From a virus, in the IMG/VR virus record IMGVR_UViG_3300025769_000138, positions 1-57,206 of that record: a stretch of 57,206 bases of DNA; one strand, 5' to 3'. Positions 31,897 through 53,089 of the stretch are shown piece after piece. Positions within the stretch are counted from its first letter, which is position 1. Each line of letters starts with the position of its first letter. The notes below the pieces were generated by a model. It was not told the DNA's origin. It saw only the letters and a list, made by a program, of their open reading frames with translations, and searched no databases. Position numbers and translations under genes: made by a program.

Positions 31897-33159
31897 TCAA
31901 CCTCTACCCCAAACATTATCCCAAGATCCACTAAGCTCCTTCTTAGTATACTCTGTAACTCTAGCTTCAAAGAAGTTAGCATGTTCTACAGAGTTTAACA
32001 TATCAGCTAACCAAGGTAAAGGATTATCTTTAACTCCATAGTTAGTTTTTAATCCTAGCTGTAGTAATCTTCTATCAGCTATATACCTAATATATTGCTT
32101 AACTTCTTCTTTAGTTAATCCCTCTACTCCACCTTGAGCAAAAGCTAAGTCAATAAACCTATCCTCTAGATCTACCATCTGCCTACAACATTCATAGATC
32201 TCTCCTCTAGTCTCATCTCCAGCAGCACTATTCCAGAACACTTTATTGTCTTCCACTAAAGTACGGAATACTTTAATCATAGATTCTACATGAAGGCTCT
32301 CGTCTCTACATTTATGTTCAGATAAGTTCGTTACTCTTATCCCGCTTTCGCTGCTTTATGTTACCATAAAGATCGGACTATATCATCACCGCTCTTGCAG
32401 TGTTAGGCGCTTCGGGCTACTTAGCCCTACTCTCTTTCGAGATAGTCTCTGAACCTTCCAATTCTTGCCATAACTGTCAAGCAAGTATTGGCTTGGCTGC
32501 TGATTGTCCTTCTCAGGAGTTTCCAGCAATTCACCTAATTTAAGGAGCACTCAAGCTTAGTTAATGCTCCAGCTCACTATCTGTCCCATACCTTTCATCT
32601 TACCAAACCTTTGGAAGTTCATAAGGATGGCAAAGGAACTGAACAATTGCATACCTTCAGTAAATGCTGAGTAGATAGCTACAGATTTAAGTAGATCTGC
32701 GGTAGCATAAGTACCATCTAGTCTAGGCTTAAGATCCACCATAGATTCTACATAATCATGCTTATCTTTCATCTCTTCATACTCTAGGAAAGCTTTATAC
32801 TCTAGCTCAGGCATACCTACAGTATCTAATAGGTGAGCATATGATAATACGTGGTTGACTTCCATAGCAGCAAAGGTAGTCATCATCATTCTAAGATCAG
32901 GATTCTTAAACACCTTGATGTAATTATCTAAGTATCCTTTAGCAACATCCATATCTGCAGTAACAAAGAACCTAAAGATCTGAGTCAAAAGATTCTTCTC
33001 TTCAGGAGTTAACTTTAGTTTCCAGTCTGATATGTCCTCTTTCATAGGTACTTCTGAAGGAAGCCAGAACATACTTTGTTGTGCTTCTGTAGCTTCAATA
33101 GCCCATGAGAAGTCTAAGGGTCTGAAGTAGTTTCTTTCTTGTAGTGCTTTACTTGTCAT
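31897..33159 (-). CDS. nrdB: Ribonucleotide reductase beta subunit, interrupted by a group I intron (335 aa when spliced)
   Basis: Exon 1 is 33159-32564 and exon 2 is 32308-31897. Joined, they give 1008 nt in one frame. The radical/metal centre is split: exon 1 has EVNHVLSY (Glu100, His103, radical Tyr107) and TEGMQLF (Glu168), while exon 2 begins with Arg-Asp-Glu-Ser-Leu-His, the second ExxH ligand pair. The intron interrupts an Ile codon (AT|T) just before that motif. Without splicing, translation stops two codons later. It pairs with NrdA just upstream. Confidence 0.93.
32309..32563 (-). ncRNA. Self-splicing group I intron in nrdB (255 nt)
   Basis: On the minus strand the core elements appear in order: CAATCAGCAGCCAAGC, then GTTCAGAGACTA, then GATATAGTCCGATC, the conserved core of T4-type (td/nrdB/sunY) group I introns. 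The 5' exon ends in T, the intron ends in G, and removal restores the NrdB frame. It has no open reading frame, so it is a small intron without its own homing endonuclease. Confidence 0.93.
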
Positions 33160-33735: not shown

Positions 33736-35583
33736 TTAACCCTCACAACTTAAACATTCATTATCACCTGAGCTATAGCTATGTCTATCAAACTTTAGAC
33801 TAATGTTATCAGCTCTATTTTGTACCATTGTCCTACAATAGTACAACGTCTTCAATCCTTTTTTCCAAGCACTAAAATGTACTGAGTGCATATATTCTAC
33901 AGAAGCATCCGAAGGAAAGAATAGATTAACAGACTGAGACTGGCAGATATACTCTTGTCTAGCTGCTGCATGTTCTATAACCCAATGTTGGTCTATCTCA
34001 AAGGCAGTCTTGAAGGTATCTTTCTTATACTCGTCTATATCTATCCCTAGAATAGATCCTTGAGCAGAAGATACTTCAACCCATTGTTCTTCAGTTAATT
34101 CTAAGAACTTATTCCTTACTATAGTAGTGCCATTAAGAGTCTTCTGCCCTACAAGATTAGTAGAGAAAGGTTCTATAGAAGGACTAGTACCACAAATAAT
34201 ACCTGAAGAAGCGTTAGGTGCTATAGCTAATAGCTGAACATTCCTCTGCATATACTTTGTAGTTTCTGTTATAGAATAGGTGCTACCTTCTTTATGGTTT
34301 AAGGTAAATGTAGGAGTGTCTCCATATAAGGTTTTTCTTTTTCCTGTAAGTTGTTCATTTATAAGTATTGTATCTTCTTCTATAGGACAAGGACCTCTCT
34401 CTATAGCCAACTCTCTAGTAGCCTCTGTAGCTTTCTCTTTAATATCCTTAAAGATATTCCTATTATAAGAACTAGCTAAAGCAGATTCAAAAGGAACACC
34501 TTTAGATTGTAGATAAGCATGGAAGCCCATAGCACCTAAGCCTATATCTCTACCTCTAATAGCCCCTTTAACAGCCTTAGACATAGTTTCTGGAGCGTTA
34601 TCTATGAAGTCTTGTAGAACATTATCAAGCATCCTTATAAGATCCTTCACCATGTCTGTGTCCTTCCATTCGTCATACTTCTCTAGGTTGACTGAGGATA
34701 GACAACATACTGCTGTAGTCTCAGGATCTGTAGGTATTAAAATCTCACTACAAAGATTTGATTGGCTAATCTCAAGCCCTGCATCTTTATAAGCTTGAGG
34801 TCTATGTCTATTAGAAGCATCTATGAAATGTAGATAAGGCTCTCCTGTTTCAAACCTAGTCTTAAGTATCTGTTCCCATAGATCAGAAGCCTTAACAGTC
34901 TCGGTAACTTCTTTAGTATGAGGGTCTATAAGATCCCAAGAATCATCAAAGTCTTTATCCTTCATCTTAGCTTCAACAAGTTTCATGAAACTATCAGGAA
35001 TATTAATACCGTGATGTAGGTTGAGGTTCTTTCTATTAGGATCTCCTTTAGGTATTCTCATAGATAGGAACTCAGATATTTCTGGATGGGATATATCTAG
35101 GTATGAGGCGTACCCCCCTCTACGAGTAACAGATTGATTTACTGCTAATATTAATCTATCAACAACATGCATAAAAGGTATCATACCAGTGGATTTAGAC
35201 CCTTGAGAAGTACCAGAACCTTCGGATCTAATCCTAGACCAGTTAGACCCTATGCCACCTCCCATAGATGCTAACCAAATAGTGTCAGAGTAATTATCCG
35301 CTATACCTTCTCTAGAGTCATCTAACTCATTTAAGAAACAGCTAATAGGTAGCCCCCTCTTAGTGCCTCCATTAGATAATACTGGAGTAGCAAAACCAAA
35401 CCAAAGATTAGAAGCATAATCGTATAATCTTTGAGCATGTGCTTCATCATCCCCATAATAAGAAGCTACTCTAGCAAAAGCATCTTGAGGAGAATCTTCT
35501 CCTTCTATTAGATATCTTTCCTTGAGCATTACCTTAGCTGCTTCTGATAGCAGTTCATCTTTAGTATAATCAATCTGTACCAT
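33736..35583 (-). CDS. nrdA: Class I ribonucleotide reductase alpha subunit (615 aa)
   Basis: It reduces ribonucleotides to deoxyribonucleotides with NrdB. The redox Cys is Cys82 (PISCFLNE). The thiyl radical site is NLCSE (Asn276, Cys278, Glu280), with paired Cys293-294 after it. The C-terminal thioredoxin-exchange tail is CLSCEG. The protein is shorter than cellular NrdA and lacks an N-terminal ATP-cone, so the usual dATP feedback switch is probably missing. Confidence 0.93.
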   Translation of the reverse strand: MVQIDYTKDELLSEAAKVMLKERYLIEGEDSPQDAFARVASYYGDDEAHAQRLYDYASNLWFGFATPVLSNGGTKRGLPISCFLNELDDSREGIADNYSDTIWLASMGGGIGSNWSRIRSEGSGTSQGSKSTGMIPFMHVVDRLILAVNQSVTRRGGYASYLDISHPEISEFLSMRIPKGDPNRKNLNLHHGINIPDSFMKLVEAKMKDKDFDDSWDLIDPHTKEVTETVKASDLWEQILKTRFETGEPYLHFIDASNRHRPQAYKDAGLEISQSNLCSEILIPTDPETTAVCCLSSVNLEKYDEWKDTDMVKDLIRMLDNVLQDFIDNAPETMSKAVKGAIRGRDIGLGAMGFHAYLQSKGVPFESALASSYNRNIFKDIKEKATEATRELAIERGPCPIEEDTILINEQLTGKRKTLYGDTPTFTLNHKEGSTYSITETTKYMQRNVQLLAIAPNASSGIICGTSPSIEPFSTNLVGQKTLNGTTIVRNKFLELTEEQWVEVSSAQGSILGIDIDEYKKDTFKTAFEIDQHWVIEHAAARQEYICQSQSVNLFFPSDASVEYMHSVHFSAWKKGLKTLYYCRTMVQNRADNISLKFDRHSYSSGDNECLSCEG

Positions 35584-35795
35584 TAACTAAAATCCCCATT
35601 AATAATTGACCATAACGGTCCTTGCAATTTGTTTATTTCTTCTTTAGTACCTGTAGCTAATATCTCTATAGGTTTCTTGCCATCTGTACTTTTATTATTA
35701 GAAGTAAACCATAAGTCTACGTTAGCTGGCTTAAGTACATAAGAAGCCAGTTTATAAGTCTCTATAGTTTCCCAAGTTCTTTCTTCTGGTGTCAT
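35583..35795 (-). CDS. Solitary MbcA/ParS/Xre-type antitoxin domain (70 aa)
   Basis: Residues about 28-70 (NVDLWFTSNNKSTDGKKPIE, then LATGTKEEI and INGDFS) follow the DUF2384 toxin-binding pattern (WLNTPNxxLGGxxPLELL, then GVFS-type end) of antitoxins that block RES-domain toxins. There is no N-terminal DNA-binding domain and no RES toxin nearby. A phage protein with only this part could neutralise a host toxin. The family call is by eye. It overlaps the nrdA start by 1 bp. Confidence 0.6.
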   Translation of the reverse strand: MTPEERTWETIETYKLASYVLKPANVDLWFTSNNKSTDGKKPIEILATGTKEEINKLQGPLWSIINGDFS

Positions 35796-35846: not shown

Positions 35847-36080
35847 CTAACTTAATAGGGAGGTTAAATCTTTTTCTGTTAGAGTACCTAGTTCTGTTAT
35901 CTCTAATACTTTAAATATTCTAGACACTGCAAAATCTTGTTTAAAGGTCTTAGACCTCTCCATTAGTGCTTTAGCCTGTAGCTCTGCTGTAGTTTTATCT
36001 TTAAAATACCCTAATATCTCTTCCTGATAACTTAAGTCATATGTACAGGCGTATTCATGTTTCAATATATATATAGTCAT
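35847..36080 (-). CDS. Hypothetical protein (77 aa)
   Basis: It begins MTIYILKHEYACTYDLSYQE and contains a helix (TTAELQAKALMERSKTF). The overall pattern is alpha/beta. No function is recognised. It overlaps the nuclease gene upstream by 4 bp (ATGA). Confidence 0.6.
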   Translation of the reverse strand: MTIYILKHEYACTYDLSYQEEILGYFKDKTTAELQAKALMERSKTFKQDFAVSRIFKVLEITELGTLTEKDLTSLLS

Positions 36081-36409
36081 AACAACTCCTTAAAAAAATA
36101 TTCAGCATCTAATAATACTAAAGGTTTCTTATGATTAGCTTTAATAACAACTAAAGGTTCATACTTACCTGCGTTAGCTTGAGCTTGTTCATAATATTTA
36201 TATACAGCTATAGCCTTAAGACTCTTACATTCTACAGAATAAGGAAATAACTTACGAGCTGCTGGAGATAATTGTACATCTTCCCCTCCAGCTCCCATAC
36301 TTGTAGACTTAACATCATCAGGCTCTAGCTTAGGGAAGGTCTTAAGGATAAGATCTCTTACGTATTTTTGTAAGTTTCTTCCTTTAGCTTTTTTGCTTTG
36401 AGTCTTCAT
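36077..36409 (-). CDS. Small PD-(D/E)XK nuclease, resolvase-like (110 aa)
   Basis: The active-site pattern is readable: GGEDVQLSP (Asp near 48), then SVECKSL (Glu-Cys-Lys near 60-62). A conserved basic start KKAKGRNLQKYVRDL precedes it. Small enzymes of this form act as Holliday-junction resolvases or nucleases in phage replication. It lies beside a second, larger nuclease gene (26-bp overlap). Substrate is not determined. Confidence 0.65.
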   Translation of the reverse strand: MKTQSKKAKGRNLQKYVRDLILKTFPKLEPDDVKSTSMGAGGEDVQLSPAARKLFPYSVECKSLKAIAVYKYYEQAQANAGKYEPLVVIKANHKKPLVLLDAEYFFKELL

Positions 36410-37286
36410 AAGTAACTTCCTTATCTTTATCTAAGAACCACTTCTTAGTTTTACCTTTCTCACCTAATCTATACTCAGCTTCAGGATGACATTTATCTTT
36501 TCTAGGACAGAATTGACAAGGCTCTCCTGTACCACAGGCTATAACTTTCTCTCCTGTTTTCTTACCATACCAGGTTTCTTCTTTAACTCCAGGGCAGGGA
36601 GGTAGAGGTCTATCATTCTTAAAGTGGTCTACTACTTTAGTAATATCCTTTAAAGCTTCTTGTCTCTCATCTTCTACTTCAAGGAATTTAAACTCTCCGC
36701 TAACCTTATTTACCACAAACAAGCCTTTAAAGCAAGAGCTATCTACATCTTTTTTAGCTGCATTATATCCCCATCCTTGTAACCTATAGCCAAAGCTATC
36801 CTCCTCTTTAAAAGATTCATAATCTTTAAACTTATGCTCAAAGGAATGAGGGGAACAAGACTTGATATCTATAAGATAATTCTCTCCAGTTAATTGATCT
36901 TTATAAATATGGTCATACTCCCCTTTAATAGTCTCTCCTAATATATCTAGCTCTACCTTACCTGATTCCCCTACAATATCAACACCTGAAGCTTTAAGCA
37001 ATACAGTTATCATAGCTTCAATAATATCCCCATAAGTAACTAAGAGCTTAAACTCAGGAGACTTAAGATCTTCTCCATATAGTTTATCCATATGTAATTG
37101 TCTTAAGTCTTTACCTATGTTAGACATCCTAAGTCTAAACTCTTTTTCTCTAGGAGTATTGAATTGCTTAACGAGAATATTCTTACATAAAGTACCAAAC
37201 TCTTCTATCAATTCATCTGATATATTTACGGGTACTTTATTAGCCTTAGCAAGTAAAGCTCTAAGTTTAATCTCTAGCTCATTCAT
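36384..37286 (-). CDS. Cas4/RecB-like exonuclease with C-terminal cysteine cluster (300 aa)
   Basis: The core has the PD-(D/E)XK signature: an N-terminal RMSNIGKDLRQ, then IKGEYDHIYKD and LIDIKSCSP (Asp...Asp-x-Lys). Near the C-terminus a Cys cluster (PPCPGVKE, then ACGTGEPCQFCPRKDKC) could bind a metal or Fe-S cluster, as in Cas4/AddB-like nucleases. It likely processes DNA ends in recombination or replication. Confidence 0.75.
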   Translation of the reverse strand: MNELEIKLRALLAKANKVPVNISDELIEEFGTLCKNILVKQFNTPREKEFRLRMSNIGKDLRQLHMDKLYGEDLKSPEFKLLVTYGDIIEAMITVLLKASGVDIVGESGKVELDILGETIKGEYDHIYKDQLTGENYLIDIKSCSPHSFEHKFKDYESFKEEDSFGYRLQGWGYNAAKKDVDSSCFKGLFVVNKVSGEFKFLEVEDERQEALKDITKVVDHFKNDRPLPPCPGVKEETWYGKKTGEKVIACGTGEPCQFCPRKDKCHPEAEYRLGEKGKTKKWFLDKDKEVTYEDSKQKS

Positions 37287-37498
37287 CAGTCTAATTCCTT
37301 CTTCATTAGCTTAAGACCTTCTATAAGAGCAGCTATAGATTCTTTTTCTATAAAGGCTACATGTGAGTTCTGGTTTAATCTTATACTACCTAATGCATCC
37401 TCTTTGGAGAGGTGTACGTAACCTACTCTAGATTGTCTAACCGCAACACTCTCAATAGGTCTAGTTTCTTCTTTATAATTAATCTGTAATCTATCCAT
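37286..37498 (-). CDS. Paralogous small protein A, NYKEETRPIES family (70 aa)
   Basis: It shares INYKEETRPIES near the N-terminus, and a C-terminal pattern FIEKxxIxxLIExLKLxK, with the gene at 40381-40596. This shows an old duplication within the leftward module. The order is a short beta part then a C-terminal helix. Function is unknown. The gene is coupled to the Cas4-like nuclease by a 1-bp overlap. Confidence 0.7.
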   Translation of the reverse strand: MDRLQINYKEETRPIESVAVRQSRVGYVHLSKEDALGSIRLNQNSHVAFIEKESIAALIEGLKLMKKELD

Positions 37499-38082: not shown

Positions 38083-39246
38083 TTATTTATTCCCCTCAAT
38101 CATCTTCTTATTAAGATCCATTAAAGCTTGAAGACCTACGGCATCAAAAGGATTTACTTTGGTTCCATCAGCATCAGAGCCTCCACTTACCATAATCTGA
38201 GGTAATCTTACTTTAGATAACTCTCTTGCTACACCAATAGCTGTATCCCTATCAAACTCAGCTTGCTCTCTAGGAGATAAACCAGCAGCTACCTTTAGTC
38301 TAGCAGCCTCAGCTTCAGCTTCACCTTTAAGGATGATAGCTTTCTTTTCTTCCTCAGCTTTAAGAGCTAACTGCTCTGCTACTTCCTTCTCCTTCTCAGC
38401 CTTAATAACAGCAGACTCTTTCTCTACTAGAGCTTTGTACTTCTCCCTAGCTACATTAGCCTTCCCTTGTTCCTCAGCTTTGATAGCATCTTGTTTAGCT
38501 TTCTTAGCTTCAGCTTTAGCAAGGATCTCTTCTTGCTCTGATTTCTTACGTGCAGAAATTAACTGATCTGTTTTATCATCAAAGTCTATTTCTTTGATAA
38601 CCAATTGGATAACATCTACATTATAAGTCTCGAAAGCAGAAGGTTCATTAATAATAGGAACACCATTCTTATCTAATTTTTTAGATACAACCCTAATGAT
38701 CTTAGAGTTACCTTCTGAATCAGTGATACTTTTTTCTTCGTACTCTGTAGCATATAACCCTTCTTTAACCTGCTCTAATACAAGGTTAATAAAATCTCCT
38801 CTACGAGTAGAGTACACTTCCTCTGCACCAAAATGAGTAGCAGATTGTTTAAGGGTAGCTGCTACTACCTGTCTGACTAGATCTGTATGAACTGCTTCAT
38901 AAGAACGGAACTCATTATGTAGTTTAAGTACATCTTTTTCTTTAGCTGGTAACTTAAATTTAATCTGTCCTGTAATAGCAGCTGTAGCTCCATCATTAAA
39001 TCGAACGGTGATAGGCTGATTATCAAAGCTATATGTATCTGATATCTTATAAGTAAAGATATCTCCAAAGTTCTGTAAATACATACCAGGATCTGTTTTA
39101 ACAGACATATTACCAGAAATAGCAGCCTGTTTTACTTGCATATAACCTGCATTATTAGTCTCAATTAAACTGGCTCCAGCAGTTAGTCCTACAACAACTG
39201 CAAGCCCTCCTATTACAATAGAAATATCTTTTAATATACTCATCAT
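38083..39246 (-). CDS. SPFH/band-7 (prohibitin-like) membrane protein (387 aa)
   Basis: An N-terminal TM helix (about 8-28, VIGGLAVVVGLTAGASLI) is followed by an SPFH domain (about 30-220) and a long Ala/Glu/Lys-rich coiled coil (about 225-330). This is the order seen in prohibitins, flotillins and HflK/C. Such proteins form large ring or cage assemblies on the inner membrane and can modulate proteases. Role in infection is unknown. A good ribosome site AAAAGGTGGA precedes the double ATG. Confidence 0.85.
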   Translation of the reverse strand: MMSILKDISIVIGGLAVVVGLTAGASLIETNNAGYMQVKQAAISGNMSVKTDPGMYLQNFGDIFTYKISDTYSFDNQPITVRFNDGATAAITGQIKFKLPAKEKDVLKLHNEFRSYEAVHTDLVRQVVAATLKQSATHFGAEEVYSTRRGDFINLVLEQVKEGLYATEYEEKSITDSEGNSKIIRVVSKKLDKNGVPIINEPSAFETYNVDVIQLVIKEIDFDDKTDQLISARKKSEQEEILAKAEAKKAKQDAIKAEEQGKANVAREKYKALVEKESAVIKAEKEKEVAEQLALKAEEEKKAIILKGEAEAEAARLKVAAGLSPREQAEFDRDTAIGVARELSKVRLPQIMVSGGSDADGTKVNPFDAVGLQALMDLNKKMIEGNK

Positions 39247-39266: not shown

Positions 39267-39343
39267 TGGTAGTCCCGACAGGGTTTGAACCTGCAATCTC
39301 CCGATTGAAAGTCGGACGTGTTAACCAATTACACTACGGGACC
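39267..39343 (-). tRNA. tRNA-Glu (anticodon TTC)
   Basis: A full cloverleaf is readable: acceptor GGTCCCG/CGGGACT, anticodon stem TCCGA/TCGGG with loop CTTTCAA (anticodon TTC), and T-loop TTCAAAC. The discriminator A is followed by an encoded CCA end. It reads GAA, a very frequent codon in this AT-rich genome. It lies 3 bp downstream of tRNA-Pro. Confidence 0.95.
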
Positions 39344-39346
39344 GTA

Positions 39347-39424
39347 TGGTCAGGGTGGCAGGGTTTGCACCTGCGATCTCTGGTTTCCAAAACCAGCGGA
39401 TTAACTAGACTTTCCCACACCCTG
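39347..39424 (-). tRNA. tRNA-Pro (anticodon TGG)
   Basis: The acceptor stem is CAGGGTG/CACCCTG with discriminator A and encoded CCA. The anticodon stem is CTGGT/ACCAG with loop TTTGGAA (anticodon TGG). The T-arm stem is GCAGG/CCTGC with loop TGCAAAC, a slight variant of the usual TTCAAAC. It reads CCA/CCT-type proline codons. Its 5' end lies 4 bases from the structured RNA candidate. Confidence 0.93.
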
Positions 39425-40380: not shown

Positions 40381-40596
40381 TTAAAGTTTCTCCTTTGCTA
40401 ATTTTAATGCTTCAATCAATGAGTCTATTTTATTTTTCTCTATAAAAATTTCTTTCCTATTTACCTCATCATAAAATAATGTACTAGTAGCAGATCCTCT
40501 AGATAGCTTTACTTTATACATGCCATCTATACAAACCTCAATACTTTCAATAGGTCTAGTTTCTTCTTTATAATTAATTTTTATATCTTCAGTCAT
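40381..40596 (-). CDS. Paralogous small protein B, NYKEETRPIES family (71 aa)
   Basis: This is a paralogue of the protein at 37286-37498, with shared INYKEETRPIES and FIEKxxIDxLIExLKLAK. It starts at 40596 (AAGAGGTGGTAGT before ATG; the frame is open a little further upstream). Its N-terminus overlaps the polymerase stop. It lies between polymerase and SSB-like genes, so both copies flank replication or recombination genes. Function is unknown. Confidence 0.65.
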   Translation of the reverse strand: MTEDIKINYKEETRPIESIEVCIDGMYKVKLSRGSATSTLFYDEVNRKEIFIEKNKIDSLIEALKLAKEKL

Positions 40597-42800
40597 ACTA
40601 CCACCTCTTCTTTCTCCATCCAATTATTACCGATCTCTAAATCATAAGTTAAAGGTACATTACACTCTAACCCAAATCTTTCTTCTATAACTCTAGGAAC
40701 ATTATCGAATACTTTTCTATAGATGTCAATCATTATTTTCTCTTCACCAGGAAAAACATCACAAGTAACCGAATCATGTACCGTAAGTATTACTCTAGAC
40801 TTTACTTTATGTTTCTTCATCAACCTCCATAGCTCTAACATTGTTACCATTACTATATCAAAACAAAAACCTTGCACAGGATAATTACATATCTGTGGAT
40901 AGCTATATATCCTACCTGATGCCAACCTCCTAGCATAAGGGAATGTATATATTCTTCCTGAAGGAGTTTGAGTCTTCTTATATTTAATAGCAGTCTCACC
41001 TAACTTCTTCTGCCATTCATCTATCCCATAGAAATACTCTAAGAAGTATTTAAAGTATTGTACTTGGGCTTCTGTACCAGACATCCCTCCATATAAAGGT
41101 TTGAAGGTATGTTCTTTAGCCTCTTGTCTCTTACCTTTAGGATCTATAGACTTATACGGATGTCCATAAGATTCTAAAGTATCCCTACTAAATGCATGAG
41201 CATCATTCCCTTCTGCTATAAACTTCATAGCTTGAGGACATTGACTTAATAAAGCTGCACCTCTAAACTCTAACTGCCCAAAGTCACAATCTAATATCTT
41301 ACCTCCTTCCCATCTAGATATAATAGCCTTCTTAACAGGGAATGTATTACCTCTAGGTAGATTATGGAAAGTAGAACTAAGCCTACCTGTTAAAGTAAGG
41401 CACTGATTATAATTCATATGCAGGAAACCATCTTTAGAATCTCTATTGATAGCACCCACAAAGTTATTCAAGTATGTACTAACAGAATTATATCTAGATA
41501 ACTTCGTTAAAAATAACTTAGCTAGCTCATTGATAGGCTTCTCTAGTAATACATCTATTGTATCTCCTCCTACTGAGAACCCTCCTTCAGCTGCATACTC
41601 CCAACTATAATATGTAACTCCTAATCCTGCCAACTCTTTAGTATCTTTATAATATACCCCTTCTCCTAGACAAGCCTTACATTTATTAGGAGTCTTATAT
41701 CTTTTAGCAGGTACAACTACATCTGGCTTAGTCTTATACTTTATAACTTTAGGTTTAGTGTATCTATAATATTGTCCAGATCCCTTACACCTTTCACATT
41801 GCTTAACTTCAGTCTTATATAATCTCTTAGCATTTACATTAAGTAATCTTTTAATTTCAGTAGGGGTTTTCCTATTATGGTATTTAGCCTTTCCTTTTCT
41901 TGGTCCCTCCTTTTCTGTACCTATATTAAAGGCTTCTACCCAAGCAGGTTTATCTAGTATCTTATACCCGAATACTATTTGAGATATGCACTCAGGGGAG
42001 TTAAGATTAATAGGAGAATCTCCCATAACATTCTTAGCTATCTTATATAGATCTCCCTCTAGTTCTTTCTTCTCAGCAACAAAATCTTTCTCTACTTTAT
42101 CTAAAGCTTCTTGATCTATATGACACCCAGCTCTCTCCATATCAGTGAGCATAAGAGTAAACTCATTCATAGGCTTGAGGATAGATAAGGTAGAAGCTAA
42201 CTCTTTATCTGTCTTAAGTAACTTCTTATGCACATTAAATAACTCGGCAGTAGAGAATATATCTCCCATACCATATGTATATAGATCATCATAAGGAACC
42301 TCATCTGTATTAAATCCTTTATCAAAATAATCTTTTAATATATCTAACTTAGCTTTAACCCCTCTTCTATCACAACATTCCTTAAGTGTGAAGTAGCCTT
42401 TACCTCTAGGCTTTGCTTTATTAGCTACATACTCAAAGGTCATAGTATCAAATATCTGTATATCATCAGGTAGTTTAAAGCCAGATTCTAGTATCCAAGA
42501 TAAATCAGCCTTAAGATTATGCCCTACTAAAAGCTTAGTCCTATCTAATACATCTTGTACAAATTGGAAGGAACCCTTCTTATACTCTTTACCATCTGTA
42601 GTATACTTATGTTGTATCTCTTGATGCTCAAAGAAGGCTCCTCCTGTAGTACCATCTGAAGTAGTTAATCCTAAGAATACTAGCTTATTACCCCGACAAT
42701 AAGGAGTACCATCTATTCTTTCTCCAGACCTACCTGTATAAGGGCTAGTATAAGTATACTTTCTTACAGACCATTCACCGTCTAATACTGTAACTGTCAT
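40593..42800 (-). CDS. Family A DNA polymerase with 3'-5' exonuclease and zinc-finger-like insert (735 aa)
   Basis: This is the replicative polymerase. Exonuclease motifs are LDGEW (Asp7, Glu9), HNLKADL (Asp99) and YGMGD (Tyr176, Asp180). Polymerase motif A is DCDFGQLEFR (about 504-513), motif B RQEAKEHTFKPLYGG (about 558-572), and motif C TVHDS (about 673-677). Unusually, residues 335-380 hold two CxxCxGxG knuckles (CERCKGSG and CKACLGEG), like a DnaJ zinc finger, between exonuclease and palm. Confidence 0.93.
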   Translation of the reverse strand: MTVTVLDGEWSVRKYTYTSPYTGRSGERIDGTPYCRGNKLVFLGLTTSDGTTGGAFFEHQEIQHKYTTDGKEYKKGSFQFVQDVLDRTKLLVGHNLKADLSWILESGFKLPDDIQIFDTMTFEYVANKAKPRGKGYFTLKECCDRRGVKAKLDILKDYFDKGFNTDEVPYDDLYTYGMGDIFSTAELFNVHKKLLKTDKELASTLSILKPMNEFTLMLTDMERAGCHIDQEALDKVEKDFVAEKKELEGDLYKIAKNVMGDSPINLNSPECISQIVFGYKILDKPAWVEAFNIGTEKEGPRKGKAKYHNRKTPTEIKRLLNVNAKRLYKTEVKQCERCKGSGQYYRYTKPKVIKYKTKPDVVVPAKRYKTPNKCKACLGEGVYYKDTKELAGLGVTYYSWEYAAEGGFSVGGDTIDVLLEKPINELAKLFLTKLSRYNSVSTYLNNFVGAINRDSKDGFLHMNYNQCLTLTGRLSSTFHNLPRGNTFPVKKAIISRWEGGKILDCDFGQLEFRGAALLSQCPQAMKFIAEGNDAHAFSRDTLESYGHPYKSIDPKGKRQEAKEHTFKPLYGGMSGTEAQVQYFKYFLEYFYGIDEWQKKLGETAIKYKKTQTPSGRIYTFPYARRLASGRIYSYPQICNYPVQGFCFDIVMVTMLELWRLMKKHKVKSRVILTVHDSVTCDVFPGEEKIMIDIYRKVFDNVPRVIEERFGLECNVPLTYDLEIGNNWMEKEEVVV

Positions 42801-43000: not shown

Positions 43001-43930
43001 TTATCTTCCTAATATTACTCTAGCTTTCCAATCCTCTAGTTTAAGAACTGCTTCTTCAGGTAACCATACTACTGAAGCAGATTCTTCTAGCTTATTCTGA
43101 GGTTGTCTCCCTACATACTGAGAACTTTCTATTAATACTAGATACAGATCACAGAACTGATTCATCTGAGTGGATACAAAGCATCTATCTATAAACTCAA
43201 TATCGTTATCAGATACTTCATACCCTGATTCTTCTAATACTTCTTTCTTTACTGTATCAAAAGGAGAATCCTCTGAATCTAGACTACCTCCAAAAGCTGT
43301 TACCATGAACCTACCTATCGGAGGCTTATATTCATTGATTAATCCATATAGATCTGTATCTAAATCATAAAGAATAAAAGCTACAGAATCTTTTCCTAAT
43401 CTTTCAGCATAGTAATATCCTTGGTTCTCTTTAATCTTAAGAAATTTATTCCCTTTAGAAGTACTATAGATAGTCTCTATAGTAGAGTCATGTAGGTGAT
43501 CTAAAGCATGACGTATTTGAGTAGCACTGATGTCAAACTTCTTATCCTTTAATTCTATACAGTTGTGTTTACCAAAGCAAGCTGGGATATAGTGCACTCC
43601 TTCAGAGTTCCTATCTTCAGGTTTGTCATAGTAGAAGAACTTATAATTATTTATATTATCCCACTTCAAAGTCTCTACTATAGTTTCAATCCATTCCTCA
43701 TCTGTAGAATAATCTTTAATACCAAAAGATATAATACCAGGAAATACTTTTTGTAGCTTACTTATTCTAGTGGTAACATCATAAGGATTCTTCTCAGTCC
43801 CTGATTCTTGAATTGAACCTATGATTACCACAGGTGTATACCCTCTCTCTATAATCTCATTAATGATAGCCTCATGCCCTTTATGAAAAGGCTGAAACCT
43901 ACCTATAAATACTCCATATGGTTTACTCAT
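43001..43930 (-). CDS. Bifunctional NMN adenylyltransferase / Nudix hydrolase (309 aa)
   Basis: The N-terminal nucleotidylyltransferase has GRFQPFHKGH (about 10-19) and the second-site motif DISATQIRHAL (about 132-142). It joins ATP and NMN to make NAD+. The C-terminal Nudix box GGSLDSEDSPFDTVKKEV...EESGY (about 215-238) matches Gx5Ex7REUxEExGU with Lys for Arg, and would hydrolyse ADP-ribose-type compounds. The start at 43930 is chosen for GGAGTTGTTT before it. It overlaps the NAMPT stop. Confidence 0.93.
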   Translation of the reverse strand: MSKPYGVFIGRFQPFHKGHEAIINEIIERGYTPVVIIGSIQESGTEKNPYDVTTRISKLQKVFPGIISFGIKDYSTDEEWIETIVETLKWDNINNYKFFYYDKPEDRNSEGVHYIPACFGKHNCIELKDKKFDISATQIRHALDHLHDSTIETIYSTSKGNKFLKIKENQGYYYAERLGKDSVAFILYDLDTDLYGLINEYKPPIGRFMVTAFGGSLDSEDSPFDTVKKEVLEESGYEVSDNDIEFIDRCFVSTQMNQFCDLYLVLIESSQYVGRQPQNKLEESASVVWLPEEAVLKLEDWKARVILGR

Positions 43931-45179
43931 AAACAACTCCATCTTTAAATCTAGTTACAAACCTAGGATTATCTTGAATCCCTCTCTTAGAAGTTTTTCC
44001 TTGATCAGTGACAGGATCTTTATATACATCCCTTACTGTACCATCAGCTAACTCTATAGCACAGGCTTTAATAGCCATCTTATGTGTATCTCTATCTAGT
44101 TGTTGCATAAGGTATCCTCCACAACCAAAGGCAAAGTTCTCTGCTGAGTAACCTTTAGCTTGAGTAAAATCTAAGATAGCAGATATAGTTTCTTTAGTTA
44201 TACCATCCCCCCAAATAATTCTATATTTGTCAAATACTTTATAACCTCTAGCATTCCTACTAAAATCTACTTTGTTATCCTCTAGGATATGAATGATATC
44301 TTGGATTACCATAATAGGATCTCCGCTATCAGGTCTAATAACAAAGGTAGGATACTCATCTGATTCTACTTTATCCTTAAACTCTCCAGAAGAAATATAA
44401 TCTACAGCTTCATAAATATTATATGAGTCCATAACACAAGCAACCATAGGCTGTCCTTTATATAACTCTAGGTAATTATCATAGAACTTAAACTCATTCT
44501 CTCTACCCCAAGATGTAACAGTAGAGTGTTCACTAGCTGGAATAGAATAGCCTTCAGAATATTCTATGCAAGCAAAGTTGTCTGTGCCTTTGAACTGAGT
44601 TAAGTGTGCCAACCCACCAATCAAAGCAGACTCTACTGAGCTACTACCTCTATCTCCAAAGTTATGAAATGCAAAGTCCACACCATAGATATCACCTACA
44701 GTTTTACTCCAGTATTTCTCTAATATCTTTCTGACTTCATAAGCTCTAGTAGCTACTGAGATAGGATACCAGGTCTTCATCAGTAAAGTCTCTAGATAAT
44801 TTACTAACCAGTAACAATTAGGATCTGTATTAGTGATAAGCATAAGAGGCTCACCTACTTTAGCTAGGGTATTTTCAGGCAATGCTTTGATTTCTATAGG
44901 TAGGCTACCATTTAGTTCTTGATCTATATACTTCCACCCTTCAAAATTAAATGGCAGACCATGTTTAGCTGCTAAATATTCTGCTTCAATTGTAAATTCT
45001 CTCCAAACAGTATGTCCTTCAAGGTATGTTCTTAAATAATAGTCCAACCCATTAAAAACAATCTCCTCAAAGTCACCTCCTCTAGCTTCCATATAGGAAT
45101 AAATCTTTGTGGTTCCTTCTGGGTATTGCTTCCAGTGTGATAACTTATAGCTATCGGTTAATGTAATTATATTATTCAT
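43923..45179 (-). CDS. nadV: Nicotinamide phosphoribosyltransferase (NAMPT/NadV) (418 aa)
   Basis: It converts nicotinamide and PRPP to NMN. The family signatures are TDSYKLSHWKQYPEGTTKIY (about 8-27), FHNFGDRGSSSVESALIGG (near 170) and FVIRPDSGDP (near 285). It is shorter than human NAMPT (about 490 aa). With the next gene it forms a complete nicotinamide to NAD+ route. In phages such enzymes restore NAD+ removed by defence systems. Confidence 0.92.
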   Translation of the reverse strand: MNNIITLTDSYKLSHWKQYPEGTTKIYSYMEARGGDFEEIVFNGLDYYLRTYLEGHTVWREFTIEAEYLAAKHGLPFNFEGWKYIDQELNGSLPIEIKALPENTLAKVGEPLMLITNTDPNCYWLVNYLETLLMKTWYPISVATRAYEVRKILEKYWSKTVGDIYGVDFAFHNFGDRGSSSVESALIGGLAHLTQFKGTDNFACIEYSEGYSIPASEHSTVTSWGRENEFKFYDNYLELYKGQPMVACVMDSYNIYEAVDYISSGEFKDKVESDEYPTFVIRPDSGDPIMVIQDIIHILEDNKVDFSRNARGYKVFDKYRIIWGDGITKETISAILDFTQAKGYSAENFAFGCGGYLMQQLDRDTHKMAIKACAIELADGTVRDVYKDPVTDQGKTSKRGIQDNPRFVTRFKDGVVYE

Positions 45180-45705: not shown

Positions 45706-47856
45706 CTAACTCCTCATTCTACTGTATTCTGGTTCCAATGTATAGAACACAGGCTGTTTAAATCCTGATAATTTATTCTTAGGTATATTAATACATCTCA
45801 CGTAATCATCTATCCCTCCTGTATCTTTAGGATCTTTCATCCCTACACAAAAAACAAAATCAGCTTCAGCAGCCTTGCCTGTTTTACTACCGTCTAATTC
45901 TTCAAATCCATAATGCATCTTACCTGCAGCTCCAGCTCCAGCTTGAGTAATAGCTAGAACTAAACAATTATACTTCTTAGATATTTCTCTAGCAGAAGTA
46001 TATAAAACCCTAAGCTTTTCATCAGATCTATTATACATACCTTTAACAGATAATTTATCTAGTTGATCTATGATGAGTACATCTACTTCATTCTTTGATA
46101 CATAAGTATCTAACTCTTCGATAGACATATTAACTTTATCCTGTACAAAGATATTGTCTTTAATAGGTTCAAATAAATCTTTAGCCAAATCTTTATTCTC
46201 TAGTAATTCTGATTTAACTTTACCTGTCCAACATCCTAGTCCTCTGACTTGGGTACGGATAGCAGGTTCCTCATTACATATAATATGAACTTTAGCTCCT
46301 TGTTCTAGCCACCCTTCTTCTCCGTACACTAAGGATACATAGAAGGCAGTCTTCCCACAATTACCTGCTACAGCTACTTTATTATTACGTCTTACTATGA
46401 TCCTTCCATGAGGCACTGTAACACAATATACTTTACCATAATAATATTCCTTAGACTTAGTAACACTTCTAACCTCTGAGAAATTCCTATTAGTTAATAT
46501 ACTTAAAGAATGTATATCAGAAAACTTATCTGATCTAGTATCTTCGAATACAGAATGATTACATTGCATACCAGACAAAGCACATATACTTGATACAACA
46601 TCTGCATTAAACTTTATTGTAGTGTCATACTTAATTCTAGTATCTGTTCTTCTAGTAGCATCCCAATAGGATAGTTCCTCTATAAACTTTTCTCCCCAAC
46701 GAAAATGTACTTTAGATAAGTCTATCCAGTCAAAGTTCTTACTAGGAAGTTCTTTGCATTGTACGTATATAGTAGTATAGTTTTCTTTAGTTTTGTCTTT
46801 AGTAATACTATACTTTAGTTGTGCTTCATTAAGTATATTTATAAGCCTGTCTACTTTACGCTGTTTCTTAAAAGAGAACCTAACTGTAAAGTGCCCTCTC
46901 TCTCCAGTACATCCTTTTCTTGCTGTACTCCCGTCAGCTTGGTATGCAATCAAGAATCTTTGATAAGGTGTTAGAGTAAAATTAAACCCTTTCTTACTGC
47001 CAGAATGAATGTATTTATAATTAGAAGGAATATTATCTTTTGCCTTAATTTTTACTAATTCATTTTTACGGTTCTTCAAAACCATATCATGATTAGGTGT
47101 TACCAAGAGATCTATCCTGCCTTGAGATTGTTTAAATGAAACCATGTCTCCTTGGTAATCATTCTCAATATAATCCGTAGGATACACAAAAGATACTTCT
47201 TCATGCTCATCTACTTGGGCTACCTTCTCTGTTCGATCAAGATCTTTGAACAGTTTCCACCCTTGTTCTGTGAGTATCTCAGTATCATCTGAATAGCAGT
47301 CTGGTCTAGCTGCTATAACTCCTAGCACCCCTTGATCTTTAGGTATATTACCCATAGCATCTTGTAGTACAGGAAGATTCCAAGTAAACCCATGCTTGGC
47401 TTCTACTTGCTCTAGCATTTCATATACATCTGTGGTCACATACTCTACTTCTTCTTGTAAGATATTACCAGATTTAATTCTATCAACAATAGATATTACT
47501 TCATCTATATCTCCACCAGATATTAATAGATCAGCAGCCTCTCGCTCTAGTTCTTCTATCCAAACTTTAGTTAGTATCTCCTCCCCAATATCTAATCCTA
47601 TATCCTCCAGCTGTCTTATAGTATTAAATAATTCTCCTATCTCTTTCTTAGTAGCAAGAGTCATAGTCGGATGATCTACTTTATACTTCTCCCATAATTC
47701 TGCTAGAGTTATATCCCTCTTATAGGTTTCATGTAAATCTTTTAAAGATTGGTACACTGATAATAATTTATCTGGAAAGAAATTATCAGAGATCTTATCT
47801 TTATGATCTTCATAGAAAGAGTTGTTTAATAATAGTTTAACTAATTCCTTGCTCAT
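45706..47856 (-). CDS. DnaB-type replicative helicase carrying an intein (716 aa precursor)
   Basis: Outer residues give a DnaB-like helicase. The N-terminal helical part (about 1-110) is followed by a RecA-like core with GVIAARPD...CGKTAFYV (Walker A, split at Asp186/Cys500), VDVLIIDQLDKL (Walker B, near 592-602) and AITQAG. After removal of residues 187-499 a 403-aa helicase remains. The matching primase is a separate gene (49135-49875). Confidence 0.92.
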   Translation of the reverse strand: MSKELVKLLLNNSFYEDHKDKISDNFFPDKLLSVYQSLKDLHETYKRDITLAELWEKYKVDHPTMTLATKKEIGELFNTIRQLEDIGLDIGEEILTKVWIEELEREAADLLISGGDIDEVISIVDRIKSGNILQEEVEYVTTDVYEMLEQVEAKHGFTWNLPVLQDAMGNIPKDQGVLGVIAARPDCYSDDTEILTEQGWKLFKDLDRTEKVAQVDEHEEVSFVYPTDYIENDYQGDMVSFKQSQGRIDLLVTPNHDMVLKNRKNELVKIKAKDNIPSNYKYIHSGSKKGFNFTLTPYQRFLIAYQADGSTARKGCTGERGHFTVRFSFKKQRKVDRLINILNEAQLKYSITKDKTKENYTTIYVQCKELPSKNFDWIDLSKVHFRWGEKFIEELSYWDATRRTDTRIKYDTTIKFNADVVSSICALSGMQCNHSVFEDTRSDKFSDIHSLSILTNRNFSEVRSVTKSKEYYYGKVYCVTVPHGRIIVRRNNKVAVAGNCGKTAFYVSLVYGEEGWLEQGAKVHIICNEEPAIRTQVRGLGCWTGKVKSELLENKDLAKDLFEPIKDNIFVQDKVNMSIEELDTYVSKNEVDVLIIDQLDKLSVKGMYNRSDEKLRVLYTSAREISKKYNCLVLAITQAGAGAAGKMHYGFEELDGSKTGKAAEADFVFCVGMKDPKDTGGIDDYVRCINIPKNKLSGFKQPVFYTLEPEYSRMRS
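46360..47298 (-). other. Intein in the Walker A loop of the helicase (313 aa)
   Basis: It starts at Cys187 (CYSDDTEILTEQGWKLFKDL) and ends VAVAGN before Cys500. Block B is TPNHDM (Thr253, His256) and block F is KVYCVTVPHGRIIVRR. The residue before the terminal Asn is Gly rather than the usual His. Residues about 295-460 resemble a degenerate LAGLIDADG domain (FLIAYQADGS and FIEELSYWDATRR). Until it splices out, the ATP site is split and the helicase is probably inactive. Confidence 0.9.
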
Positions 47857-50042: not shown

Positions 50043-50711
50043 TTAATATCCTCCTGTACATTTATTAGATTCTAGTAAAGTGAAAATCTTATCTGAATAA
50101 TCGTCTTCAGAATAAAAGTCTGGATTATATGTGTCTGATGTAGAACTTTCTTTAGATACATCAGGTAGCACAGACACTAACCTACCTATTAATGCAGATA
50201 AACTCTCTTTATCAATAGTATATCCTCTACCTAAAAACTTAACCATGCGAAGTAGAGATCCTGCACAATGCTCGTTTCTAATAGGTCTAGTATAAGTTAA
50301 CCTCTTAGTCTTTATATCTTCTAGAAACTCATCCAAATATACAACATAAGGTTTATTCTCTAATACATATAAACCTATTTGGTTAATAGTAAAATCAAAA
50401 TCCTCTATCATTTCTTTAGCATTCTGGTATGTCCACTTAGTAATAAGTTGGATAATAGATTCTCCCTTAATATAAAAACTAGTAGCATTATTGCTAGTGA
50501 AGTAACTATATGCTTTAGATTTTAAATACTCTTTAACTTCTTCTTGGATACCATATGTAGAGAAGATATCTATATCTTTAATATCCTCCCCTAATATATT
50601 ATCTCTAAGACATCCTCCTCCCACAAATACTTTACCTTGGAACTTAAGTAAAGTTGTCTTTACTACCATAGGTAGCGAGTCAAATAACTTATTAGCATCT
50701 ATCTCATTCAT
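50043..50711 (-). CDS. CCA-adding/poly(A) polymerase-type nucleotidyltransferase (222 aa)
   Basis: The active-site layout GGGCLRDNILG (31-41) then DIKDIDIF (Asp46, Asp48) is that of tRNA nucleotidyltransferases and poly(A) polymerases. DFDFTINQIGLY (near 104-115) continues the family pattern. It is short, with most of the tRNA-binding body missing. Neighbours encode an RNA-repair kinase and RNA ligase, so an RNA 3'-end role is likely. Confidence 0.75.
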   Translation of the reverse strand: MNEIDANKLFDSLPMVVKTTLLKFQGKVFVGGGCLRDNILGEDIKDIDIFSTYGIQEEVKEYLKSKAYSYFTSNNATSFYIKGESIIQLITKWTYQNAKEMIEDFDFTINQIGLYVLENKPYVVYLDEFLEDIKTKRLTYTRPIRNEHCAGSLLRMVKFLGRGYTIDKESLSALIGRLVSVLPDVSKESSTSDTYNPDFYSEDDYSDKIFTLLESNKCTGGY

Positions 50712-51189
50712 CTTCTTCTTCCTTTATTATAGTTATAGTTTTAAATCCTTCTTCTTCAGTAGGTATTTCAAAAGACTTTATCATACCTTCTAATACTGTT
50801 GGTGCTAAGTTCCTCCCAGACTTCCATTTATTCCTTCGTCTAATAGTATCTGGATCTACAATAAATACTACAGCATGGATGTCATATACAGTAGCAGGTA
50901 TCTTACTAAAGATCAACTTCCTTTTCTTCTTAGTAAGATTAGTTTGATCCCAGATAATATTATCCATATTAAAGACTGCTTCTTTAAGATCTTCATTCAT
51001 CTTAGACTGAGCTTTACCTATAAGATTATAGAACATTCTATTATAAGTAGAGCCTTTAGCTTTAACTTCCTCCTCTATATAATCATCTGTAGATAATACA
51101 GTATAATAGTTTAAGTCTTGTTCTTTCCTAAACCTAGTCTTACCAGAGTTAGGTACACCTACTAGGATATATGCTTGAGGTCTATCCAT
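50704..51189 (-). CDS. Polynucleotide kinase-like P-loop kinase (161 aa)
   Basis: P-loop GVPNSGKT (about 10-17), STDDYIEE (near 31-38), IIWDQTNLTKKKRK (near 77-90) and VDPDTIRRRNKW follow the kinase half of T4 Pnk. The phosphatase half is absent. The start at 51189 is chosen for GGGGAG before it. It overlaps the nucleotidyltransferase gene by 8 bp. With the ligase downstream it would heal and seal cut RNA. Confidence 0.8.
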   Translation of the reverse strand: MDRPQAYILVGVPNSGKTRFRKEQDLNYYTVLSTDDYIEEEVKAKGSTYNRMFYNLIGKAQSKMNEDLKEAVFNMDNIIWDQTNLTKKKRKLIFSKIPATVYDIHAVVFIVDPDTIRRRNKWKSGRNLAPTVLEGMIKSFEIPTEEEGFKTITIIKEEEDE

Positions 51190-51346
51190 CAATCTCCCCT
51201 TCCCTGTCAAAGTACGAAGCCAATTCATAAAGCATATGATAATCTAAATCTTCAACACATTCTTTACCCCATTCCTTTACAAATTGATTAATACTATTGT
51301 CATCAATATTATCCTCTACCCATTGTAATAATTCATCATGTGTCAT
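51182..51346 (-). CDS. Small acidic hypothetical protein (54 aa)
   Basis: It begins MTHDELLQWVEDNIDDNSIN and is acidic and helical. It starts at 51346 with GGGAGGGCTATAA before it. Its end overlaps the kinase start by 8 bp (ATGGATAG). No function is recognised. Confidence 0.65.
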   Translation of the reverse strand: MTHDELLQWVEDNIDDNSINQFVKEWGKECVEDLDYHMLYELASYFDREGEIDG

Positions 51347-51530
51347 TTATAGCCCTCCCTTCTGGTCTATCTTCTGGGTTTATATCTTGCAATGAATGTC
51401 GTGTTGCACAGTCATGACAAAATAAACAAGACTGGTCACCAGCATCCTTACAAATTTCTTCACGGCGGTATTCGAGTTTTGTCGATCCGCAATTACCGCA
51501 TATGACATGTAATCTAGCGTGTACCATCAA
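51336..51530 (-). CDS. Zinc-finger protein (64 aa)
   Basis: Several Cys in order, ICGNCGSTKLEYRREEIC and then CLFCHDCATRH, form a probable zinc ribbon. It starts at a double ATG (51530). It lies inside the RNA-repair cluster and overlaps the ligase end. It could be nucleic-acid binding. No defined role is recognised. Confidence 0.65.
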   Translation of the reverse strand: MMVHARLHVICGNCGSTKLEYRREEICKDAGDQSCLFCHDCATRHSLQDINPEDRPEGRAINDT

Positions 51531-52653
51531 TCTTCATCCTTAAATATTTATTATTAAAATCTTCAAACTTCTTATTAGAACCTAAGTAATTCTTCTCCAG
51601 AATATTATATAAAGTATCTAACATATCCCAATCTTCTTTATCTTCTATATCCCAGAACCTGAAGACTAAGAAAGTAGTCAGCTTATCTAACTTAGAATTT
51701 AAAGAGAACTCTTTCTTAGAATTAAAGATACTCTTGGCATTAGTTACTATGTCTGACATAGCATTAGCTAGAATAGCCATTCGATACTTAAAATCTTCTA
51801 TAAGATCTTGCATAATCTTTCTCTTCTCAGGATGTAGCTTAGGTAGTACATCATCTATATCTTCTGTAATAAATACATGAATAATATTCCTTAAGCTAGA
51901 TGTTATATTAACAAATCTATGTAGCTTAACATACCAATCAGTCTTAAGCTTTACCATCTGACCATCAGAATATCTTATGACTACTCCTTCTTCCTCTTCT
52001 CTATCTTTAATCCTAGCTAGATCATACATATCTCTAGTGTTAGGTACTACAGGTACTTCTCTTTCTTCTGCTAGTCTTCTCATATAATTATAACCTACGT
52101 ACATACCACTATTAATATCTCTAATAGCTAATAGCTTTAGATCATTCTTCTCATGGTGTAATACTATAGGTTCATCCTTATCCTCCCACTCAAAGATACA
52201 AGTAGTAGACGTACCTAGATAGGCTGCAAGATTTAGATACTCGGGTCTATACTTAACCCAAGCCTCTACCTTCTTACTTACATCTGTTATCCCTGCTTTA
52301 GTCATCCACTTCCATTCACCTTCTAACCATACAGGAGTAACCATGCTACCATCTAGCTTATCTAACACTACATGAGCTGGATCATCTATACATTTACTAT
52401 GCATAAGATTATATTGAGTAAATTCCTTCTCATCTATATTGAAGAACTTGTGGAAAGGTCTTCTGATTAAGAAGTTATTCTTATTAAATACTAATCCTCT
52501 ACATTCTAAATCATATTCATTATTAAATGTATCTCGATCCTGATGTGTATATATTAATACTTTATAATCTTCTTTATCTACTAGTTTGATATAAGGATTA
52601 TCTTTTACTTTAGGATATATATCCTCTAGTTTAAATAATAAAGGGAATGACAT
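51514..52653 (-). CDS. rnlA: RNA ligase 1-type (T4 Rnl1-like) RNA ligase (379 aa)
   Basis: Motif I KLDGSM has the nucleophile Lys at residue 99, the same number as in T4 Rnl1. Later motifs are CIFEWEDKDEPIV (near 149-161), EEEGVVIRYSDG (near 218-229) and VKLKTDWYVKLHR (near 232-244). Rnl1 seals 5'-phosphate and 3'-OH RNA ends and repairs tRNAs cut by anticodon nucleases. It is grouped with a kinase and a nucleotidyltransferase. Confidence 0.92.
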   Translation of the reverse strand: MSFPLLFKLEDIYPKVKDNPYIKLVDKEDYKVLIYTHQDRDTFNNEYDLECRGLVFNKNNFLIRRPFHKFFNIDEKEFTQYNLMHSKCIDDPAHVVLDKLDGSMVTPVWLEGEWKWMTKAGITDVSKKVEAWVKYRPEYLNLAAYLGTSTTCIFEWEDKDEPIVLHHEKNDLKLLAIRDINSGMYVGYNYMRRLAEEREVPVVPNTRDMYDLARIKDREEEEGVVIRYSDGQMVKLKTDWYVKLHRFVNITSSLRNIIHVFITEDIDDVLPKLHPEKRKIMQDLIEDFKYRMAILANAMSDIVTNAKSIFNSKKEFSLNSKLDKLTTFLVFRFWDIEDKEDWDMLDTLYNILEKNYLGSNKKFEDFNNKYLRMKIDGTR

Positions 52654-52853: not shown

Positions 52854-53089
52854 TACACTAACTCCTCTTCTACTTGGAAGTACCCTTTGACTAATACTAT
52901 ATCTCTATCTTTATCCATAGATATATATTTTCCTGAATTTAAACTTATACCTACCCTACTAGGTGAGTCTTCTTCATTTTCTTTATCTGTTAATATATAT
53001 AAACACTTACCTACTGAAAGCCTAAATACATCTCCATTTTTTATATCCTTTAAAGTTAATTTTTTATTTTTATTATGTCTTACTTCCAT
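52853..53089 (-). CDS. Hypothetical protein (78 aa)
   Basis: The product is a small beta protein with a basic start (MEVRHNKNKKLTLKDIKNGD) and an acidic end. It lies between the Clp-type ATPase and the next small gene with 1-bp overlaps. No function is recognised. Confidence 0.6.
   Translation of the reverse strand: MEVRHNKNKKLTLKDIKNGDVFRLSVGKCLYILTDKENEEDSPSRVGISLNSGKYISMDKDRDIVLVKGYFQVEEELV

Follow-up and report, generated by a model that had tools for sequence, protein, structure and literature searches.

A predicted stand-alone Xre/MbcA/ParS toxin-binding domain next to phage nrdA, a candidate mimic of RES antitoxins

Results

A 70-aa gene overlapping nrdA in a distant relative of HMO-2011-type podophages

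The window analyzed here, an IMG/VR virus record taken at its full length of 57,206 bases, carries on its minus strand a 70-aa ORF (35583 to 35795) that begins with an ATG at 35795, ends with a TAA at 35583-35585, and has an AGGA-type ribosome site about 11 nt ahead of its ATG. Its stop codon shares one base (TAATG) with the start codon of nrdA, the gene for the large subunit of ribonucleotide reductase (RNR; 33736 to 35583, minus strand). In minus-strand order, the row comprises a RusA/endonuclease-like gene (36077 to 36409; phrog_244, E 8.7e-15) and a gene for a hypothetical 77-aa protein (35847 to 36080), followed by the 70-aa ORF and then nrdA. The RNR small-subunit gene is split by a group I intron (Rfam RF00028, 105 bits; 32354-32630, minus strand), with coding pieces at 32557-33159 and 31897-32280.

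The terminase of the record is about 43 to 49% identical to its best matches and the DNA polymerase 33 to 37%. By these two proteins, it is closest to marine podophages of the HMO-2011 type (HTVC033P, the CRP roseophages, and HMO-2011), but no close relative was found. Several other minus-strand genes stand out. A DnaB-like helicase (45706-47856) has an apparent intein at its Walker A motif (...AARP/CYSDDTEILTEQGW...VAGN/CGKTAF...), with a weak Pfam intein match (E 0.008). A gene for an SPFH/Band 7 (stomatin-like) membrane protein (38083-39246) adjoins two tRNA genes (Glu and Pro, 39267-39424). Consecutive RNA ligase, kinase-like, and tRNA-nucleotidyltransferase-like genes (50043-52653) resemble an RNA repair set, and two small, paralog-like proteins with no Pfam match (37286-37498 and 40381-40623) have INYKEETRPIES in common. 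The record also encodes a ClpA/ClpB-like AAA ATPase (53089-55059), which is unusual for a podophage of such size.

Profiles of RES-linked antitoxins detect the 70-aa ORF

An earlier note on this DNA had placed the toxin-binding half of an Xre/MbcA/ParS antitoxin in the 70-aa ORF and had set an HMM comparison with DUF2384 beforehand as a possible refutation. A match was found, though with the plain Pfam model (PF09722) it reached 16 bits (E 0.013), below the curated cutoff of 24.5 bits. The Xre_ParS_antitoxin model NF049845 also scored below threshold (E 0.027). Because neighboring ORFs match unrelated families at similar strength, these plain library matches were taken as a lead only. A tblastn search of plasmids with the ORF returned two weak matches, one of which (L178, E 3) is an antitoxin adjoining a RES NAD+ phosphorylase gene. 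The main profile was built from this seed and twelve further plasmid antitoxins reached through it, most of the 13 lying directly beside an annotated RES gene. It scored the 70-aa ORF at 21.0 bits, against a best of 9.0 among 20,000 shuffles and of 10.2 among 25,680 phage ORFs.

Since the seed had been picked by the ORF itself, profiles were rebuilt without it, still containing its relatives. The ORF then scored 19.9 bits with the plasmid profile, 23.1 bits with five actinobacterial antitoxins, and 18.0 bits, versus 8.1 for shuffles, with a broad profile that included four solved antitoxins. Seven alphaproteobacterial antitoxins alone gave no detection (6.8 bits; best shuffle, 10.2). Among solved antitoxins chosen independently of the ORF, MbcA (p=2e-4) and VPA0769 (p=6e-4) matched it, ParS matched weakly (p=0.03), and 8qnl did not match (p=0.83). 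Alignment with hhalign reached 83 to 88% probability across residues 16-55.

The similarity sits mainly in residues 15-57 (35625 to 35753, minus strand), which align without gaps to the toxin-binding domain of antitoxins and include W29, N34, G39, P42, I43, E44, and G49. The ORF shares with MbcA, VPA0769, Xre, and ParS a W(F/L)xxxN....Gx(K/R)P(I/L)(D/E)-like motif and a G-x-F-like end. With the motif residues fixed and the remainder shuffled, 0 to 2% of the shuffles reached the score of the ORF, so positions beyond the motif contribute to the match as well. Scores of 18 to 23 bits, against at most about 10 for the controls, bear out the domain proposed in the earlier note. So did its two observations on missing parts prove correct: the domain fills the whole ORF and leaves no N-terminal helix-turn-helix (HTH) DNA-binding half, and a profile search of the whole record found no RES domain (PF08808) at E up to 10. 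At the level of sequence, the assignment is confirmed, and the product is predicted to be a divergent, HTH-less Xre/MbcA/ParS (DUF2384, PF09722) toxin-binding domain.

No credible direct homologues of the ORF were found in phages, plasmids, or viral or genome contigs. Matches to L001/L002, which cover 13 residues within a ParB-like protein, and to NBG1 (E 4) were judged to be chance, as were the ORFs of L166/L168 (12.4 bits with a small profile) and the ankyrin matches from a PDB sequence search.

The predicted fold is compatible with a RES antitoxin

Modeled by AlphaFold2 with no alignment, the 70-aa protein contains strand at low confidence (pLDDT 62.6, pTM 0.45), and this model has no meaningful fold match. 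When 13 viral stand-alone sequences, which had been retrieved by a motif of the ORF, were aligned to it, the prediction became all-helical, with four main helices (pLDDT 92.8, pTM 0.79). The eight best PDB matches of the helical model are all RES antitoxins (VPA0769, MbcA, Pseudomonas putida Xre, and ParS; TMq 0.48-0.76, up to 0.76 with MbcA), although all Foldseek matches fell short of E 0.001. In BFVD, the model matches, among others, small proteins of uncultured phages, one of them already named as a DUF2384-type domain. Since the helical model depends on the alignment, it is compatible with the antitoxin fold but does not prove it.

The closest known systems are MbcA of MbcTA (6fkg), VPA0769 (8gug), Xre of Xre-RES (6gw6, 9r35), and ParS (6d0h), with which the 70-aa protein would share a four-helix toxin-binding domain. 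All of these are paired with RES toxins, whereas the phage gene has no RES partner, and MbcA, VPA0769, and Xre carry the N-terminal HTH that the phage protein lacks. According to the model and alignments, the predicted last helix (residues 51-66; 35598 to 35645, minus strand) is equivalent to the antitoxin helix that enters the toxin active site. The helix contains three extra residues (QGP) and is followed by N-G-D-F-S; the ORF keeps the antitoxin-like G-x-F ending, GDF here and GVF or GAF in antitoxins.

An ordinary phage ORFan with a mixed strand and helix fold and a merely convergent resemblance to DUF2384 might also yield subthreshold Pfam and NCBIfam matches, a strand-containing single-sequence model, failure of the alphaproteobacterial profile, similarity mainly within residues 15-57, and related phages devoid of homologues. 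We regard this as improbable given scores of 18 to 23 bits where the nulls stay at or below about 10, the two unselected solved antitoxins matching at p below 1e-3, and the confident helical model. Moreover, L210, a viral stand-alone copy that belongs to the family by its synteny with L192 and L209, reaches a similar 16.4 bits against Pfam.

Lone DUF2384 domains recur in viruses with no RES gene

IMG/VR was searched at the DNA level with a pattern that represents the shared motif of the 70-aa ORF. The pattern occurred in 28 stretches, about the chance expectation by a rough estimate, yielding about a dozen distinct viral contigs that encode small HTH-less ORFs, mostly of 58 to 82 aa and one of 107 aa. 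These ORFs score 20 to 39 bits with the antitoxin profiles; because the set had been fetched with the ORF's own motif, motif-fixed shuffles served as the control. PF09722 was the best Pfam match in all ten copies tested (L192, L194, L202, L206, L209, L210, L212, L215, L216, and L221; E 7e-8 to 0.009), and five of them exceed the cutoff. Most of the ten lack a PHROGs match, and none reaches an E-value below 0.008 there, so annotating phages with PHROGs overlooks these proteins.

Other stand-alone DUF2384 proteins from uncultured phages (e.g., UniProt A0A6J7XBF0, 73 aa; L192, L194, L206, and L209) resemble the 70-aa protein in size and single-domain makeup, are 15 to 27% identical to it, and mostly score better against Pfam. 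Like the phage studied here, the IMG/VR records lack a RES partner: no RES gene was found in 16 further viral records that carry a lone copy. Unlike the 70-aa ORF, none of the stand-alone genes examined elsewhere precedes nrdA. By names read by eye, terminase or portal genes adjoin the copies in L192, L209, L210, L215, and L216, and the L221 copy follows a small-terminase-like gene. Judging from these sequences, the stand-alone DUF2384 domain appears to be a rare but recurrent viral class.

Neither the nrdA slot nor NAD+ salvage marks a dedicated partner

Homologues of the 70-aa ORF were absent from 80 nrdA loci and 80 DNA polymerase loci, and PF09722 found no match in 90 whole records of related phages. 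Across 75 loci, the slot before nrdA holds, by names read by eye, an exonuclease-like gene (50 loci), an S-adenosylmethionine-decarboxylase-like gene (12), a DUF3310-like gene (11), or others (2). Such varied small genes mean that the RNR-operon position carries little information; the gene does lie directly before nrdA, as the earlier note had it.

The record encodes both enzymes of the NadV/NAMPT plus NadM route of phage NAD+ salvage, in line with the note's claim that this phage can rebuild NAD+. A nicotinamide phosphoribosyltransferase (NAMPT; 43923 to 45179, minus strand; NAMPT_N E 2.2e-29, NAPRTase E 1e-39) overlaps the gene for an NMN adenylyltransferase-Nudix protein (NMNAT-Nudix; 43001 to 43942, minus strand; CTP_transf_like and NUDIX above cutoff), which completes the pathway. 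The further proposal of a dedicated pairing between this route and the lone domain found no backing. The two sets of genes lie about 7 kb apart, NAMPT-type salvage genes are common among phages generally, and NAMPT occurs in one of the 16 other lone-domain viral records, a 323-kb phage, most of these records being fragments. Salvage by NadV/NAMPT and NadM is a separate known system with no general link to lone DUF2384 genes. Neither the NAD+ link, which is weak, nor the RNR link supports a dedicated pairing with the lone domain.

Discussion

The recurrence of the lone domain in viral contigs, never with a RES gene, makes an antitoxin mimic aimed at host RES toxins our leading guess. On this reading, to which we give a little under an even chance from sequence and model, the 70-aa protein would be an antitoxin cut down to its toxin-binding half that neutralizes RES toxins of the host or its plasmids. 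We infer that it would be expressed, would bind and inhibit a toxin, and would matter in infection. The targets of the small helical protein would be ART-fold RES toxins set free from Xre-RES modules of the host or of plasmids, and its last helix would occupy or cover the NAD+-binding active site, much as the C-terminal helix of the antitoxin is locked within the active-site cavity of the toxin in NatR-NatT (PMC11535050). Lacking an HTH, it would not act as a repressor at toxin promoters. RES toxins themselves degrade NAD+ or, in the case of ParT/PrsT, modify PRPP synthetase (PMC12204516), either of which would harm a phage that is making DNA; with the toxin blocked, NAD+ (or PRPP synthetase, for ParT-type toxins) would stay working during phage DNA synthesis. 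About 70 residues can bind a toxin, since a 72-residue ParS chain, labeled a fragment in one entry name, was crystallized together with the toxin ParT.

Phages are known to encode antitoxin mimics, such as the anti-DarT proteins AdfB and AdfA and the anti-RnlA/LsoA protein Dmd (PMC11481870). The role proposed here resembles theirs, a phage protein neutralizing a host toxin by direct binding. Those proteins act on other toxins, have other folds, and show little similarity to host antitoxins, whereas the 70-aa protein appears to be homologous to antitoxins. Dmd and AdfB are tested mimics; the role of the 70-aa protein is proposed from sequence and model.

The predicted toxin-facing helix holds three extra residues, Gly-Pro among them, which speaks against a RES inhibitor. 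This insertion would suit a protein in which a true DUF2384 fold has been reused as an adaptor for another phage or host protein, e.g., in packaging or nucleotide metabolism, as would the absence of a RES gene from every stand-alone record and the proximity of viral copies to terminase or portal genes (L192, L209, L210, L215, and L216; also L221), an odd setting for an early counterdefense gene. Phage gene position is, on the other hand, a poor guide to function, the literature consulted gives the fold no known role other than toxin binding, and the solved relatives found are all RES antitoxins. We hold such an adaptor to be a less probable but serious alternative to the antitoxin mimic.

Decay of a toxin-antitoxin module that the phage once acquired, leaving a functionless remnant after loss of the HTH and toxin, would account for a record that retains neither RES gene nor HTH and for a gene that is not conserved in related phages. 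Yet the frame is intact, with a ribosome site and a tight overlap with nrdA, and the recurrence of stand-alone domains in unrelated viruses argues for a retained use; we consider decay very unlikely.

Returning to the antitoxin mimic, the selective pressure that RES toxins would exert is hypothetical, since deletion of natT in Pseudomonas left sensitivity to >50 phages unchanged and RES modules had not been linked to immunity (PMC11535050). A bolder and rather unlikely extension is that HTH-less DUF2384 domains may serve as dedicated RES NAD+ phosphorylase inhibitors in this phage and at least several unrelated phage groups, joined here with NAMPT and NMNAT-Nudix, so that NAD+ loss would be blocked and NAD+ rebuilt in the same infection. 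If true, this would imply an antiphage action of RES modules. The NatT study argues against phage defense as the natural role of RES toxins (PMC11535050). Phages in which an antitoxin has been kept only as its toxin-gripping half would be indirect evidence that RES toxins threaten phages.
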